Shown: in pieces, positions 7,346 through 14,779 of the stretch
Numbering within the stretch: the stretch's first letter is position 1
Layout of the letters: each line of letters starts with the position of its first letter
Origin: Paenibacillus sp. 32O-W
GTDB lineage: Bacteria > Bacillota > Bacilli > Paenibacillales > NBRC-103111
Length of the DNA: 64,000 bases
Direction: 5' to 3'
Assembly (NCBI RefSeq): GCF_007679495.1
Contig: NZ_VEGP01000016.1
Span: forward strand, 1 to 64,000
Translations under genes and position numbers: made by a program
The notes under the pieces: generated by a model
What the model was told of the DNA's origin: nothing
Seen by the model: only the letters and a program-made list of their open reading frames with translations
The model's database searches: none

Positions 7346-9271
7346 ATGCTGCTTCAAGCTTCAAATTTATGTAAAAATTACGGTGTTCGCCCTGTGCTCA
7401 CCAACATCTCCCTGCAAATTTCGGAAAGGGAACGAATCGGCCTGGTCGGTGTGAACGGAGCGGGCAAATCAACGCTTCTGCAAATTCTGGCCGGCGAGCT
7501 TTCCTATGACAGCGGGGAACTGTTCAAATCCAAAGAGGCACGGATCGGTTATTTGGCCCAGAACAGCGGATTGAACTCGGAACGGACCCTCTATGAAGAG
7601 CTGAGAACGGTATTCTCTCATCTGCTGGAGCTGGAGCAAGAGCTTCGCGAACTGGAAGTCCGCATGGCTGATCCCGAGCTTCTGAACAATGAGAAGCTTT
7701 ATGAAGAAACCATGAATCGTTATGCGGCCCGTTCGGAGACTTTCCGCGAGCAGGGCGGCTATGAAATGGAAGCGAAAATTCGCGGGGTTCTACATGGGAT
7801 GGGCTTCGGAGACTTCCCTCCGGACACCGTGGTGAGCACCTTAAGCGGAGGGCAGCGGACAAGACTTGCCTTGGCCAAGCTTCTGCTGCAGGAGCCCGAC
7901 TTGCTGATGCTCGATGAGCCCACCAACCATTTGGATATCGCTACACTAACCTGGCTTGAGGATTACCTGCGGGGCTACCCGGGCTCGATTCTGGTCGTCT
8001 CTCACGACCGGTATTTCCTCGATGCCCTTGTCCAGACGATCTATGAAATCGAGAGGCACTCTTCCCGCCGGTATACGGGGAACTACTCCCGTTATATCGA
8101 GATCAAGGCAGCCGACTATGCCGTTCAGCTTAAGCACTATGAGAAACAGCAGGAAGAAATCGCCCGAATGGAAGACTTCGTCCGGCGCAATCTTGCCCGT
8201 GCCTCCACGACCAAACGTGCCCAGAGCCGCAGGAAGGCATTGGAACGAATGGAACGGATGGACAAGCCTCTCGGCGATTTAAAGAAAGCCTCCTTCTCCT
8301 TCGAAATCGATCGAACGTCCGGCAAGGAAGTGCTGCGCGCCGACCAAATAGCCGTTGCTTACGATGGGCATGAGCTGTTCACGAATGTCTCCCTGCACCT
8401 GAATCGGGGAGAGACCGTGGCTCTGATTGGCCCTAACGGGGTCGGCAAATCGTCTCTGCTGAAAGTCATCACCGGCCGACTGAAGCAGGAGCGGGGAACC
8501 TATGAATGGGGGAGCAACGTCACTATCGGCTTCTACGATCAGGACCAGTCAGGACTTAATCCCAATCATACCGTCCTTGAGGAAGTATGGAATGCCTTCC
8601 CCCATTTGGAAGAGGCCCGTATCCGCACGGTGCTTGGTAACTTTTTGTTTAGCGGGGAAGATGTGTTCAAGAAAATTTCCGCCTTAAGCGGAGGGGAAAA
8701 AGCACGGGTTTCCCTGGCCAAGCTGATGCTGCTGAACGCCAACGTCCTAATCCTGGACGAGCCCACGAACCATCTCGATCTGTTCAGCAAGGAAGTGCTG
8801 GAGGCCTCTTTGATCGATTATGAGGGAACCTTGCTGTTTATTTCCCATGACCGGTACTTTCTGAATAAAATGGCCGAGCGCGTTCTCGAGCTGTCCCGCG
8901 ACGGGATTACCGGTTATTTGGGGAATTATGACGACTATATGGAGAAAAAGCAGGAGCTTGCCGAGCTGCAGGCCGAAAGCGAACAAGAGAAGCCCACGAA
9001 CGGCGGCCGACAGCAGCCTGTTGAACCACAGAACGATTATGAAGCGGATAAAATAGCCAAACGGGAGGAACGCACCCGCAGGCGCAAGCTGGAACAACTG
9101 GAGCAGGAGATCGCCAAGGTCGAGCAGGAGATAAGCGATCTTGAGGCGGAACTCGCTCAGCCGGAAATCTTTAACGATTACGTCCTCGTACAGCAGAAGA
9201 ACAACGACCTGGAACAGAAAAAAGTGCACCTCGAGCAGCTGTACGAGCAATGGGCAGAATGGATGGAATAG
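7346..9271 (+). CDS. ABC-F family ATPase, YdiF type
   Basis: A 641-residue soluble protein with two tandem ABC ATPase domains and no membrane segments. Domain 1 has Walker A GVNGAGKST (about residue 36), signature LSGGQRTRLALAK and Walker B LLMLDEPTNHLD; domain 2 has GPNGVGKSS, LSGGEKARVSLAK and ILDEPTNHLD. An interdomain linker lies around 250-310, and a C-terminal coiled-coil extension (about 555-641) is rich in Glu, Lys and Gln. ABC-F proteins bind the ribosomal E site and modulate translation or protect against antibiotics. Length, architecture and position next to tsaD match B. subtilis ydiF. GGAGG precedes the ATG. Confidence 0.93.
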   Translation: MLLQASNLCKNYGVRPVLTNISLQISERERIGLVGVNGAGKSTLLQILAGELSYDSGELFKSKEARIGYLAQNSGLNSERTLYEELRTVFSHLLELEQELRELEVRMADPELLNNEKLYEETMNRYAARSETFREQGGYEMEAKIRGVLHGMGFGDFPPDTVVSTLSGGQRTRLALAKLLLQEPDLLMLDEPTNHLDIATLTWLEDYLRGYPGSILVVSHDRYFLDALVQTIYEIERHSSRRYTGNYSRYIEIKAADYAVQLKHYEKQQEEIARMEDFVRRNLARASTTKRAQSRRKALERMERMDKPLGDLKKASFSFEIDRTSGKEVLRADQIAVAYDGHELFTNVSLHLNRGETVALIGPNGVGKSSLLKVITGRLKQERGTYEWGSNVTIGFYDQDQSGLNPNHTVLEEVWNAFPHLEEARIRTVLGNFLFSGEDVFKKISALSGGEKARVSLAKLMLLNANVLILDEPTNHLDLFSKEVLEASLIDYEGTLLFISHDRYFLNKMAERVLELSRDGITGYLGNYDDYMEKKQELAELQAESEQEKPTNGGRQQPVEPQNDYEADKIAKREERTRRRKLEQLEQEIAKVEQEISDLEAELAQPEIFNDYVLVQQKNNDLEQKKVHLEQLYEQWAEWME

Positions 9272-9506: not shown

Positions 9507-12326
9507 TCATCCGTCGGACGACTCCTCCACCTGCTCTTCCAAGGAAAGAAGCAGCAGGGGTACGGCCGCATAGGTCATCATCGTCCCCGCAGCGACAATG
9601 CCCGAATCGTTGAAGAGGAATGCCGTAACCGTTCCGATGGTTATGGCCGCCCAGCCGTTGAGGAAAGCGGGATAAAGCCTTCTCCACCTGCGGAATCTCC
9701 GCGGCGGCTTCACCAAGATTGCCAGCATGACCAGAACGCAGGTCAGAACCACTTTGCTCCAGATGGATGCCCTGAGCAGGTGCACGTTCATCTTCAGCTT
9801 CCTCACGAGAATGTCCTTGATCTCCGCCAGATCTCCCGCCGCCAAATACCGAAAAGCCTCCCCGATATGACTATGCTGCCCTCCCTTAAACCATACATTG
9901 GCCACCCATAGAACCAGAATGCCACCCACCAGCAGAAGTCCCAGAAGAACCGCTGTCCGCAGCTTCATCCCACGCGCCTGGAACTCATGTCCCGGCTGTT
10001 TTGGCACCGGCTTTCCGGACCGGGACGTCGCCCGCCCGAACTCTTCCCCTCCAGAAACCGTTAGTACGTATTGTCCCAGCCCGAGTTGACGCCCAATAGA
10101 TGCCCGGTCAGTGTGAGCTAACTCCGGCTGCCCGGATCGGGGCGTTTCTCTAAGTACGGGCAGATTTCGCAAGGGAATGGGAGGGCCCAGATAACGGACA
10201 GCGCCTGCGCCTGTCTTCGGCATCCGCCCTCCACCCCGCAGCGATGGCTTTTCCGGCCAAGCAGAAAGCGGCGAGGACCATCGCTCCCCTCTGCGCAGGC
10301 CGAACCAGGCCGCCCCGCAGGTCACTGCGGCCGTTATGGCACCACCTGCATTAGCCCCGCCGACCGGAGAAGCCAGATAGATCAGCAGTGCGACATACAA
10401 AGCCGCCAGTCCCCAACGGAACAACCGATCGGCTGCAGGAGCTGTTGGGCCGATCGCGCGGCCAGACCGGGCGGCTGTGGGAGACGCCGGGCGCTTCGGC
10501 CGGCCAGACCGTCCGGCCGCAACTGAAGCAGACCCGGGCATAGAACCCGCGGGCAGGCTTTGCCGCTGTTGGGCCCATGCCATCGTTCCCAACACAGCCG
10601 CCCCTACCAGCACCCCCATTAGTTCATTGCCGATTCCATAGAACCGGGCTCCGATAATCGGATCGTAACCAAGCACCGAGCGTTTCATGACGTTCGCTCC
10701 GGTCCAGCCGTCCAGCATGAGCACGGCTGCCGTGGCGAGGCCGATCCAGGTGCAGCCGGCCCAGAGGCTCCTCCGGACCAGCCACAGACTGATGGCTGCC
10801 AAAACAACCGGCAGCAGCGCTATTTGCGCGGCATTCCATAACGCCGTACCCTCTGCGCTGGCCAGGGATAAGCCTCCGACGCCCGGCTTCGGGCCATGGA
10901 TAGACAAGGTCCCATTCAACCCGGGGCCCAAGGCAAACAGTAGCAAGGGGGCCGCCGGAATCGACCACAACAGGCCGCGCACCAAGGGCCGCCCCTCTTT
11001 TTTACGGGACAACGCATAATAAAGCCCGATTAATAACACCCCAATTTCATATACCGTAAAAACGGATAACAAAGGGAGCCTGACGCGATAAACCGCCTCC
11101 ATCCGCCCTATTTCCCCCAGCAGGTATGCGAGCGGGTCGGCATGCGGCTTGATCTGAACGGCTTTTCCCGTCCATTCCGCAGCTCCGGCCAAACCTAACC
11201 GCTCGGTAACGGACGGGGTCAGATCCCACATGACGGCAACTCCATCCCGGCGGGTGGACTCCGTATAAATCAACCCCCTTCCGCCATCGTTGCGATGCAT
11301 AATCCATGGAGCCATCGTCAGCTTCCTCTTGGCAGCATCCGAATGAACTACTGGGGATAAGATCCACAGATCTTCCTTATCCGCAATCTCCCGGCGAACA
11401 TTTCCTATGAACGAATCCATTTCCTTAAGTACATCCTGCATTTGGGCCGCGAAGCTTTCCTCCGAATAAAAGGATCTAACAGCATATAACCGCTGCAAGT
11501 CCCCCAATTCAATAAGCGTGACAGAACGATTGTCCCTCTGTTTCCACTGATCCAGGATGGCCGAATAGTCCGTGCTTACCCCTCCGGCACGCCAGGGCGA
11601 TGATCTCAACAGAGACCGGCTGACATCCCCCTGGGCCACGGTTCCCTCCAGATTCATTAGCGCCAATGGCGCGTACCGTTGAAGACCTTTCGCCGGATCG
11701 GCTTCCGAGACTATATCCGCATTGCCCCAGACATTGGTCTGAACCTGATTCCTTCCTAAAATGTCTCCCAACGAACCCGGCCTTCCTCCATAAGAAGTGG
11801 CCCGGTTCGTACTCGCCAGCCCTTCAATAGCGGGAACGAAAATCGCTTCCTTCCCGGAAGGGCGTCCGGTGTATCGCTGATATAGCACATCAGCCGGAAC
11901 CTCCTCTACCGTTTCCCAACGGTTATACCCCTGAGCACCGCCGCTCACACTCCGTCTTCCCGCTCCGATGGAAGCGTAGCTGTCTTTGCCCCCTTGCCCC
12001 GCAAGCCTTGCATTGACCGCCCCCAGCACTCCTTCCTGCAATAGCCGGCTCAACTCCGGCATCACCCTTAAGCTGGGCTCCCGAAGCTCCAGGAAAGACA
12101 AACCGGGGATAGAGATAATCGTCAAGCGCTCCGCTGACTCCCTCTCTTCGGACGAGTTCACACGATGAACCGGCTGCCCGGAGACAGGGCTTCGCCGCGC
12201 TATGTTGTCCTTCAGATAAACCTGTCCCAGATGCCCCAGAACAGCGAAAAACAATATGTACCCGGCCGATACCAACAGCCCTGTAAGTAACAGCAAGAAA
12301 GAACGAACACTGGATTGGGACCCCAT
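9507..12326 (-). CDS. Large membrane protein, N-terminal alkaline-phosphatase-like domain
   Basis: A 939-residue integral membrane protein. After a signal-anchor (about 10-33) comes an outside domain (about 65-415) with alkaline-phosphatase-superfamily features: LTIISIPGLSFLEL, a search-like SYASIGAGRR segment, and TRRDGVAVMWDLTPSVTERL, the usual late motif before the C-terminal His region. From about 425 onward there are roughly ten membrane segments broken by two long loops rich in Pro, Arg, Ser and Gly (about 590-640 and 680-770). The exact catalytic metal ligands are not obvious. GGGAGGA precedes ATG 12326. It is inserted between ABC-F and tsaD, which are neighbours in B. subtilis. No specific function can be assigned. 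Confidence 0.6.
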   Translation of the reverse strand: MGSQSSVRSFLLLLTGLLVSAGYILFFAVLGHLGQVYLKDNIARRSPVSGQPVHRVNSSEERESAERLTIISIPGLSFLELREPSLRVMPELSRLLQEGVLGAVNARLAGQGGKDSYASIGAGRRSVSGGAQGYNRWETVEEVPADVLYQRYTGRPSGKEAIFVPAIEGLASTNRATSYGGRPGSLGDILGRNQVQTNVWGNADIVSEADPAKGLQRYAPLALMNLEGTVAQGDVSRSLLRSSPWRAGGVSTDYSAILDQWKQRDNRSVTLIELGDLQRLYAVRSFYSEESFAAQMQDVLKEMDSFIGNVRREIADKEDLWILSPVVHSDAAKRKLTMAPWIMHRNDGGRGLIYTESTRRDGVAVMWDLTPSVTERLGLAGAAEWTGKAVQIKPHADPLAYLLGEIGRMEAVYRVRLPLLSVFTVYEIGVLLIGLYYALSRKKEGRPLVRGLLWSIPAAPLLLFALGPGLNGTLSIHGPKPGVGGLSLASAEGTALWNAAQIALLPVVLAAISLWLVRRSLWAGCTWIGLATAAVLMLDGWTGANVMKRSVLGYDPIIGARFYGIGNELMGVLVGAAVLGTMAWAQQRQSLPAGSMPGSASVAAGRSGRPKRPASPTAARSGRAIGPTAPAADRLFRWGLAALYVALLIYLASPVGGANAGGAITAAVTCGAAWFGLRRGERWSSPLSAWPEKPSLRGGGRMPKTGAGAVRYLGPPIPLRNLPVLRETPRSGQPELAHTDRASIGRQLGLGQYVLTVSGGEEFGRATSRSGKPVPKQPGHEFQARGMKLRTAVLLGLLLVGGILVLWVANVWFKGGQHSHIGEAFRYLAAGDLAEIKDILVRKLKMNVHLLRASIWSKVVLTCVLVMLAILVKPPRRFRRWRRLYPAFLNGWAAITIGTVTAFLFNDSGIVAAGTMMTYAAVPLLLLSLEEQVEESSDG

Positions 12327-12837: not shown

Positions 12838-13151
12838 ATGTCCACATCGTTATCCACAAGTGGATAATCAAAAAATCAAAGGAAAATTAGAAAAAAACAT
12901 GACTATCAACAACTTTATCCACATTATCCACAGTTTTTGTTGAAAAAACTATCCCGAAGCGGGGATAATTGTCGCCCTTACTCTCCCATAGACTTTTTGA
13001 TTCTATTCACATTGTCCACATAGGTTGTGGATAACTATGTCCACAGAGTCCTTACCTCGTCATTTTTCTACATGAAGCTGCAAAAAAACCGTCTGCCCCC
13101 CATACGGGTGAAGCAAACGGTAGATTTCTTACATTATTAAGTTGTGGATAA
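12838..13151. promoter_or_regulatory. DnaA-box cluster next to tsaD
   Basis: Five perfect TTATCCACA boxes lie in about 300 bases: plus strand at 12850-12858, 12915-12923 and 12924-12932 (tandem), and minus strand at 13026-13034 and 13143-13151. Two boxes have one mismatch (12859-12867 minus, 13012-13020 plus) and two have two mismatches (12838-12846, 13037-13045). 12850-12867 forms an inverted pair. The flanks are AT-rich. There is no dnaA or dnaN gene here, so this is more likely a DnaA-binding cluster that titrates DnaA than an origin. Confidence 0.85.
13082..13121 (-). terminator. Terminator of the thiL-tsaD operon
   Basis: On the minus strand ACCGTTTGC pairs with GCAGACGGT (one G-U pair) and is followed by seven T. 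It lies inside the DnaA-box cluster, about 100 bases beyond the tsaD stop. Confidence 0.75.
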
Positions 13152-13220: not shown

Positions 13221-14264
13221 CTAAACCGACCATTCTTCTAATGAAAGTAACGGCTCAGCCTTCATATCAAAGGATGAAAATTGCCCGCGCGTATATTTCA
13301 AATAAGCAGCCGCACCGATCATCGCCGCATTATCCGTGCAATATTCGAACGGGGGAATGACCAGAGGAATTCCCTCCTCGGCGCAGCGTCCCGCCAATTC
13401 GGTCCGCAGCCCGCGATTCGCGGCCACTCCGCCCGCCAGAAGAAGCTGCCGTGCGCCTGTCTCCCGAACGGCGCGCACCGCTTTCTCCACGAGCACGTCG
13501 ATGACCGACTCCTGAAAGCCTCTGGCCACATGTGCGGGGTCCAGAGCCTCCCCTTTCATCTTCGCCTGATTCAGGACGGCCAGAACGGCCGATTTCAAGC
13601 CGCTGAAGCTGAAATCGTATGAGCCCGGCTCCAGCCAAGCTCTTGGCAGCGTAATGCTCTCCTTCGCTTCATGAGCGAGCCGGTCGATATGCGGTCCGCC
13701 AGGATAGGGGAGCTGCAGGGCCCGTGCCACCTTGTCGAAGGCCTCTCCCACCGCATCATCCCGGGTCAGTCCGAGAATGCGGAAGCGCCCTTCCTTCTGC
13801 ACATGAACAATTTCCGTATGGCCTCCCGATACGACCAGCGCGACCAACGGGTACTCCAGCTCTCCTACCAGACGGTTCGCATAGATATGGCCGGCAATAT
13901 GATGCACTCCGATAAGCGGAAGCTCGAGCGCCGTAGCCAACGCTTTGGCCGCCACCATCCCTACGAGCAGCGAGCCGACAAGCCCCGGACCGTGAGTAAC
14001 CGCCACTGCCGACAGCTCGGCCGGGCTCACGCGGGCTTCCCTAAGGGCTTCTTCAATAATCCATGTAATGGTCTCCACATGCTTCCGGGAGGCCACCTCC
14101 GGAACGACCCCTCCGAATTTGCGATGGGTCTCGATTTGACTGGAGACGATATTCGATCTGACCTTCGTTCCATCCTCTACGACAGCCACCGAGGTTTCAT
14201 CACAGCTTGTCTCAATGGCAACTATATAACAAGGCTGCTTTCGCAGCTCTTCCGCCGGCTTCAT
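13221..14264 (-). CDS. tsaD: tRNA threonylcarbamoyladenosine transferase TsaD
   Basis: A protein of about 347 residues that, with TsaB and TsaE, moves threonylcarbamoyl to A37 of ANN-decoding tRNAs. The IETSCDETSVAVV start, the HHIAGHIYAN metal-binding His pair, the GGHTEIV segment and LLAGGVAANRGLR are characteristic. I chose ATG 14264 (MKPAEELRKQ) because it forms an ATGA overlap with the rimI stop and follows a GGAGG site. It is last in the thiL-tsaE-tsaB-rimI-tsaD operon. Old name gcp. Confidence 0.97.
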   Translation of the reverse strand: MKPAEELRKQPCYIVAIETSCDETSVAVVEDGTKVRSNIVSSQIETHRKFGGVVPEVASRKHVETITWIIEEALREARVSPAELSAVAVTHGPGLVGSLLVGMVAAKALATALELPLIGVHHIAGHIYANRLVGELEYPLVALVVSGGHTEIVHVQKEGRFRILGLTRDDAVGEAFDKVARALQLPYPGGPHIDRLAHEAKESITLPRAWLEPGSYDFSFSGLKSAVLAVLNQAKMKGEALDPAHVARGFQESVIDVLVEKAVRAVRETGARQLLLAGGVAANRGLRTELAGRCAEEGIPLVIPPFEYCTDNAAMIGAAAYLKYTRGQFSSFDMKAEPLLSLEEWSV

Positions 14265-14779
14265 TCGCCTCCACCTGCTCCTTTCTTGGATGCCTGAGGG
14301 GACTTGTTCAATTCCGCCCACATAATAATAGCGTCCTCATTGTTGTCGGTATAGTATCCTTTGCGGACCCCGCTGTCCTCGAAGCCCATTTTCCGGTACA
14401 GATTCCGGGCGATGGCATTCGATTCCCTGACCTCCAGGGTCATTCGCGAAGCGCCCATATAGGCTGCGGTCTTCTGCAGCTCGCCGACCAGCTTCCGACC
14501 GAGCTTGATGCCCCGGTATTTCTCCCTGATCGCTATGTTGGTAATATGAGCTTCATCCATAATCAGCCACATCCCGGCATAGCCGGCCACTTCCCCATCG
14601 TATTCCATCACCATATAACGGGCGAAGTGATTATTGACCAACTCGTTATAAAAAGCGGCTGCCGTCCAGGGAGTAGGGAAAGCCTCCTCCTCGATTTGGC
14701 AGATTTGCTCAATATCGTCCACCTGCATCAAGCGAAAAACAAGCTTGGGCGAGGTGTCGTTATGGACGCTTTTCTCCAT
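14261..14779 (-). CDS. rimI: Ribosomal protein S18-alanine N-acetyltransferase RimI
   Basis: A 172-residue GNAT acetyltransferase that acetylates the N-terminal Ala of S18. Visible motifs are the acetyl-CoA site around REKYRGIKLGRKLVGEL, the preceding ITNIAI strand, and the C-terminal RNLYRKMGFEDSGVRKGYY stretch. ATG 14779 (MEKSVHND) has AGGAAAAAGGG upstream; the longer frame is a shadow of tsaB. It overlaps tsaB by 20 bases and tsaD by 4, so the cluster is translationally coupled. Confidence 0.93.
   Translation of the reverse strand: MEKSVHNDTSPKLVFRLMQVDDIEQICQIEEEAFPTPWTAAAFYNELVNNHFARYMVMEYDGEVAGYAGMWLIMDEAHITNIAIREKYRGIKLGRKLVGELQKTAAYMGASRMTLEVRESNAIARNLYRKMGFEDSGVRKGYYTDNNEDAIIMWAELNKSPQASKKGAGGGE

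Follow-up and report, generated by a model that had tools for sequence, protein, structure and literature searches.

A DnaA-box cluster conserved 3' of tsaD in Bacilli, a probable Paenibacillales counterpart of the Bacillus subtilis gcp/ydiF cluster

The window, a stretch of 64,000 nucleotides (contig C75:1-64000), belongs to a genome of 5.76 Mb in 235 contigs. Judged by TsaD, the nearest named relatives are Paenibacillus, and on this basis the organism was placed in the Paenibacillales. Its gene order includes groEL, groES, tatC, tatA, moaB, 5-formyl-THF cyclo-ligase, a ydiF-type ABC-F gene, a gene for a 939-aa protein, tsaD, rimI, tsaB, tsaE and thiL; names given without a family search were assigned by inspection. 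The 939-aa protein is membrane-like. Near groEL (320-975), a short ORF of 84 aa overlaps another of 134 aa, and by eye only the two have the look of an antitoxin and a PIN-type toxin. The features around the junction of tsaD and ydiF are listed in Table 1. The fold of the tsaD terminator was equalled by 1 of 200 shuffles, and its hairpin is located between the last two perfect DnaA boxes, inside the cluster as the earlier note on this DNA had stated. A structured RNA was considered as a reading of the region and rejected, since no Rfam match was obtained.

Table 1. Features at the tsaD-ydiF junction in the window
Feature	Position	Strand	Remarks
ydiF-type ABC-F gene	7346..9271	+	NF000355, E 2.2e-151; other conserved border of the junction
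939-aa protein gene	9507..12326	-	No Pfam/NCBIfam match; homologues located in the cluster-ydiF interval in many families of Bacilli
DnaA box 1, TTATCCACA, perfect	12850..12858	+	Aligned position TTATCCACA in 4/5 genomes, CTATCCACA in the fifth
DnaA-box-like TTATCCACT, 1 mismatch	12859..12867	-	Abuts box 1, inverted; not conserved in the five-genome alignment
Weak box CTATCAACA, 2 mismatches	12903..12911	+	12 bp ahead of the tandem pair; makes a 12-9 head-to-tail spacing
Exact head-to-tail pair TTATCCACA-TTATCCACA	12915..12932	+	Pattern search and alignment
Second, weaker head-to-tail pair CTATTCACA-TTGTCCACA (2 and 1 mismatches)	13003..13020	+	Both positions box-like in 5/5 genomes
Inverted DnaA box TTATCCACA, perfect	13026..13034	-	Identical in 5/5 compared genomes
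Box-like ATGTCCACA, 2 mismatches	13037..13045	+	TGTCCACA or TATCCACA core in 5/5 genomes
tsaD intrinsic terminator	13084..13121	-	Stem of ~10-12 pairs, then U7; -19.8 kcal/mol, z -2.8
Outlying perfect DnaA box	13143..13151	-	Unmatched at this place in four aligned relatives
tsaD (gcp)	13221..14321	-	TIGR03723, E 1.6e-129; 3' end faces the cluster

The DnaA-box cluster beside tsaD that the earlier note had reported was confirmed. All five perfect boxes claimed were present, including the exact head-to-tail pair (starts at 12915 and 12924), and they were the only perfect ones in the 64-kb window, where 0.28 would be expected; none of 100 shuffles reached five. The best 350-bp score was 12, and the maximum in shuffles (100 of the window, 2000 of the intergenic region) was 3, so that 0/2000 of the latter reached the score of the cluster. 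The boxes agree with the consensus 5'-TTATNCACA of PMC4447404. The second head-to-tail pair lies at 88 bp from the first. The two one-mismatch boxes, at 12859(-) and 13012(+), were found as claimed; the sites with two mismatches numbered seven and not two (12838, 12903, 12938(-), 12960(-), 13003, 13037 and 13064), and those at 13003 and 13037 coincide with conserved box positions. The claim of a single isolated near-match elsewhere did not hold, as 18 other one-mismatch sites were counted in the window, scattered and none of them clustered.

Genome-wide box statistics were obtained by pattern searches. There are 85 perfect boxes in the genome, and the five within 302 bp at tsaD form the largest group found. 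The dnaA gene, which encodes an ordinary DnaA C-terminal motif (by inspection), its box-bearing flanks and a two-part oriC were located on contig C157 and not on C75; the upstream flank contains three perfect boxes, and only scattered one-mismatch boxes were found in the 7.5 kb that precede the oriC region. The tsaD array is thus a multi-box cluster, above chance and within a few hundred bp, which is located outside oriC and not next to dnaA/dnaN. A cryptic or relic replication origin could be imagined here, because the boxes are as dense as at oriC and, near 12850-13045, are spaced much as in one half of an origin. However, dnaA and oriC lie elsewhere, and tsaD is 0.2-1.5 Mb from dnaA in closed relatives; this explanation was rejected on both grounds and is considered very improbable.

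Other DnaA sites of B. subtilis were also sought in this genome. Immediately upstream of sda, its promoter on contig C158 (L282:1695-1794; G000:C158:4134-4233 region) carries two perfect boxes and two with one mismatch, which suggests that the DnaA-Sda checkpoint site of B. subtilis is kept here; these boxes serve as a positive control inside the genome. No perfect box was found on the contig of the ywlC (tsaC) gene, and therefore the B. subtilis cluster at this gene seems not to have been retained. Three perfect boxes in 62 bp, equal in number to those in the upstream flank of dnaA, were seen at the start of a tadA-like gene (L034:2861-2922; G000:C183:12860-12921). Box pairs exactly 17 bp apart (13 in the genome) were considered as further clusters and rejected, since they are copies of one repeat. 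This repeat end with two DnaA boxes occurs in at least 13 copies (L014:692-717, L038:1893-1918, L288 and L289:37-62, and others); a transposase-like ORF precedes it in L014, and it is probably an insertion sequence end.

The intergenic region was aligned for five genomes from three genera of one family, in which the relatives were one of the same genus and three of two other genera. Invariant columns made up 81% of the boxes vs 11% of the other core columns (Fisher P about 1e-22), and the sequence outside the boxes was mostly diverged. The boxes are the conserved element of this intergenic region. The five genomes share one plan: a single box, 64-65 bp and the head-to-tail pair are followed, after about 80-90 bp, by the second, weaker pair; the inverted perfect box comes next, and a box-like site closes the array. 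Accumulation of boxes by chance or composition might be suspected in a relatively AT-rich intergenic region (GC 0.44); but no shuffle came near the observed score, and conservation of the box columns extends over genera and families, which refutes this explanation and leaves it a negligible likelihood.

The head-to-tail pair TTATCCACATTATCCACA, with at most one mismatch, was found in 136 of the 148 genomes of the order, and the reversed pattern in two. Most of these pairs are located at the tsaD junction or between hpf and fliS. The latter is a second conserved head-to-tail pair, often TTATGCACA-TTATCCACA, beside the ribosome hibernation factor gene hpf and usually between it and fliS/fliT-type flagellar genes. 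It was found in about ten genera of the order, and here it lies at G000:C55:41656-41673 (L037:2157-2174); it was also seen at L117, L124, L126, L127, L129, L131, L132, L133, L141, L262, L269, L271 and L274. The hpf pair is absent from the eight strongest B. subtilis DnaA regions (PMC4447404).

Conservation was then assessed with 40 Bacilli genomes outside the order, representing 38 families; three Paenibacillus loci and mostly distant phyla obtained in a collection scan with TsaD were used as outgroups. A cluster was present within 1.5 kb 3' of tsaD in 28/40 of these genomes (26/38 families), with scores of 5-14. Twelve representatives were without a cluster at that distance; in two of them, one was present within 4 kb. 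No cluster was found 5' of tsaD in any of the 40 genomes (maximum score 2), and the reversed motif, used as a control, gave none either (0/40; maximum score 1). A lack of box enrichment in relatives, which the earlier note had named as grounds for refuting its reading, was thus not observed; enrichment was present, and on the 3' side only. Clusters were also found 27-433 bp 3' of tsaD in the Clostridia-type records Marinisporobacter, 'Lutibacter sp. B2' and Geosporobacter.

The polarity of the array was also fixed. Among the matches listed, all 108 tandem pairs less than 16 kb from tsaD (74 from the order set and 34 from the class genomes outside it) were 3' of the gene and oriented against it, and none was 5'. 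Among the matches listed, genomes with a pair but none near tsaD numbered 27/85 in the order and 42/74 in the class; the order-set pairs away from tsaD that were followed up proved to be hpf-fliS pairs or a rearranged cluster beside ydiF. Some clusters were without a pair meeting the strict pair pattern. One strand was favoured by the boxes in the clusters (172:36 and 150:35), and the commonest same-strand spacings were 9 and 12. These comparisons show that the multi-box array in the non-coding DNA of the tsaD-ydiF junction, head-to-tail for the most part, has been kept by selection across Bacilli, with fixed polarity. The cluster is conserved by descent with the boxes as its conserved element. 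No earlier statement on this conservation was found in the literature searched, whose reach did not include Okumura 2012 and Ishikawa 2007.

The gene neighbourhood varied considerably more. The cluster was 3' of tsaD with ydiF as the next conserved border, and in many families it fills the space directly between these two genes. In other families, homologues of the 939-aa gene (27-36% identity) are located between the cluster and ydiF. The earlier note had correctly placed the cluster at the tsaD-ydiF junction; its description of a large inserted gene was not upheld, because homologues at the same junction in many families point to a long-standing neighbour rather than a unique insertion. Another genome of the same genus (L042, L096) has no match to the 939-aa gene there and has kept the cluster. 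In part of the order, leuA lies between tsaD and the cluster (identified by inspection at one locus read). Genus g6 has an rRNA operon after tsaD, and the cluster is found beside ydiF instead; the operon is probably why many assemblies break 230-550 bp past tsaD. After a split of tsaD from ydiF, the cluster is found on the ydiF side. For example, in the closed genome G061 (L093) tsaD lies 633 kb from dnaA in one direction and the ydiF cluster about 624 kb in the other, a layout suggestive of an oriC-centred inversion in which the distance was preserved. These arrangements show that the position of the cluster is independent of any single gene.

These rearrangements bear on whether DnaA at the cluster might control the transcription of a neighbour, namely the 939-aa gene, tsaD or ydiF. 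In this window, the 939-aa gene starts about 0.5 kb downstream of the cluster, which also overlaps the tsaD terminator, and several B. subtilis clusters do regulate genes. However, the cluster is kept without the 939-aa gene, with leuA intervening and with tsaD on the other chromosome arm, and in many families it is located between two 3' ends. Moreover, gcp and ydiF are not among the reviewed gene sets directly regulated by DnaA (PMC8203912). Neighbour control is therefore judged improbable, and control of one fixed neighbour was rejected, as the cluster outlasts changes of its neighbours. The survival of the cluster through loss and gain of neighbours, and its linkage to ydiF after a split, favour a chromosomal DnaA sink over local gene control.

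The distance between tsaD and dnaA in 25 closed relatives had a median of 0.134 genome length (range 0.061-0.349), and only 2/25 were above 0.25. The gene was nearer dnaA than expected from a uniform spread (KS P 1.6e-4 for the 25 closed genomes, a value that overstates their independence because they are related).

In Paenibacillales, the cluster probably corresponds to the gcp/ydiF cluster of B. subtilis and may act as a high-affinity DnaA sink that restrains re-initiation. It is a counterpart of a known element, and not a new kind, and the reading offered by the earlier note is largely upheld. That note had pointed to a DnaA-binding cluster at gcp/ydiF in B. subtilis, and rightly so: with its 10 sites, the DNA downstream of gcp and ydiF ranks as one of the eight strongest DnaA regions (PMC4447404). 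Its Kd is 0.15 uM for ATP-DnaA and 0.33 uM for ADP-DnaA, and at 55 nM ATP-DnaA recovers 16-fold more of this DNA than ADP-DnaA (PMC4447404). The restraint of initiation that the note had mentioned was also borne out by the literature, as deletion of all six extra-oriC clusters leads to early initiation; the effect is strong only with all six gone, and one reinserted cluster relieves it partly (PMC5295017, PMC13220808). By analogy with B. subtilis, DnaA would bind the cluster described here and affect initiation, and titration would be expected on the same grounds.

For such a sink, the following mechanism might be proposed. DnaA would load cooperatively on the closely spaced same-strand boxes, probably for the most part in its ATP form, as in B. 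subtilis, and the array would thereby withdraw initiation-competent DnaA. If, as in most of the closed relatives, the site lies in the origin half of the chromosome, it would be duplicated early after initiation; this would double the sink and lower the free initiation-competent DnaA. Re-initiation at oriC would then be restrained jointly with other clusters and protein regulators. Regulation of one neighbour gene is probably not the mode of action. The conserved cluster suggests an old DNA 'sponge' that helps to keep replication from starting too early.

The main rival to titration is an effect on the nucleotide state of DnaA, in which the cluster, like datA or DARS, would arrange DnaA for ATP hydrolysis or ADP exchange and thus change the active fraction. 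Two head-to-tail pairs at a distance of about 88-99 bp, the 9- and 12-bp spacings, the fixed polarity and one inverted box represent more order than a plain sink needs, and the B. subtilis site tells ATP-DnaA from ADP-DnaA. However, B. subtilis is without IHF, Hda and DiaA homologues and without datA/DARS loci, and no regulator of DnaA ATP/ADP interconversion is known there (PMC13220808); moreover, the box architecture differs among families. This alternative seems unlikely. It may be widened into the tentative and still rather doubtful proposal that the tsaD-ydiF cluster represents an ancient element of replication control in Bacilli (and a few Clostridia) with fixed polarity, whose ordered head-to-tail arrays would go beyond titration by assembling an ATP-DnaA complex that changes DnaA activity, as a Gram-positive counterpart of datA/DARS without IHF.

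The depth of conservation and the fixed polarity make the cluster more interesting than a single orthologue. The extra-oriC clusters of B. subtilis look redundant because a strong effect is seen only when all six are gone, and the importance of any single one has been doubted. The deep conservation, fixed orientation and conserved spacing suggest that the tsaD-ydiF cluster is under selection, and that it is the one to study. Natural variation in the presence of the 939-aa gene, in leuA insertion and in separation from tsaD offers a comparative set in which the importance of box number, polarity and distance to oriC could be weighed.

Among known systems, the closest likeness is to region 4 of B. 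subtilis (gcp/ydiF; Smith and Grossman 2015, PMC4447404), which sits at the junction of the same two genes, tsaD (gcp) and ydiF, downstream of both, and, as here, has about ten boxes within a few hundred bp. Its summit is at 628 kb of 4.2 Mb, a distance from oriC in the same range as that between tsaD and dnaA in the closed relatives. Six extra-oriC DnaA-box clusters, with the gcp/ydiF region as one of them, were reportedly described by Okumura et al. in 2012. The present cluster differs in that the 939-aa gene separates it from ydiF, so that it is not directly between two 3' ends. In E. coli, datA needs IHF and promotes the hydrolysis of ATP-DnaA, and DARS1 and DARS2 regenerate ATP-DnaA and promote initiation. 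An activity of the DARS type is not known for Bacillus clusters. Like the tsaD cluster, datA is a multi-box locus outside oriC, and its loss causes over-initiation (PMC5295017); whereas B. subtilis has no IHF (PMC13220808), and the genome context differs. DARS1 and DARS2 likewise have ordered DnaA boxes outside oriC. Within the present genome, the sda promoter also represents a B. subtilis DnaA site that was kept; however, it is gene-regulatory in B. subtilis, and it has fewer boxes than the tsaD cluster and no tandem pair.
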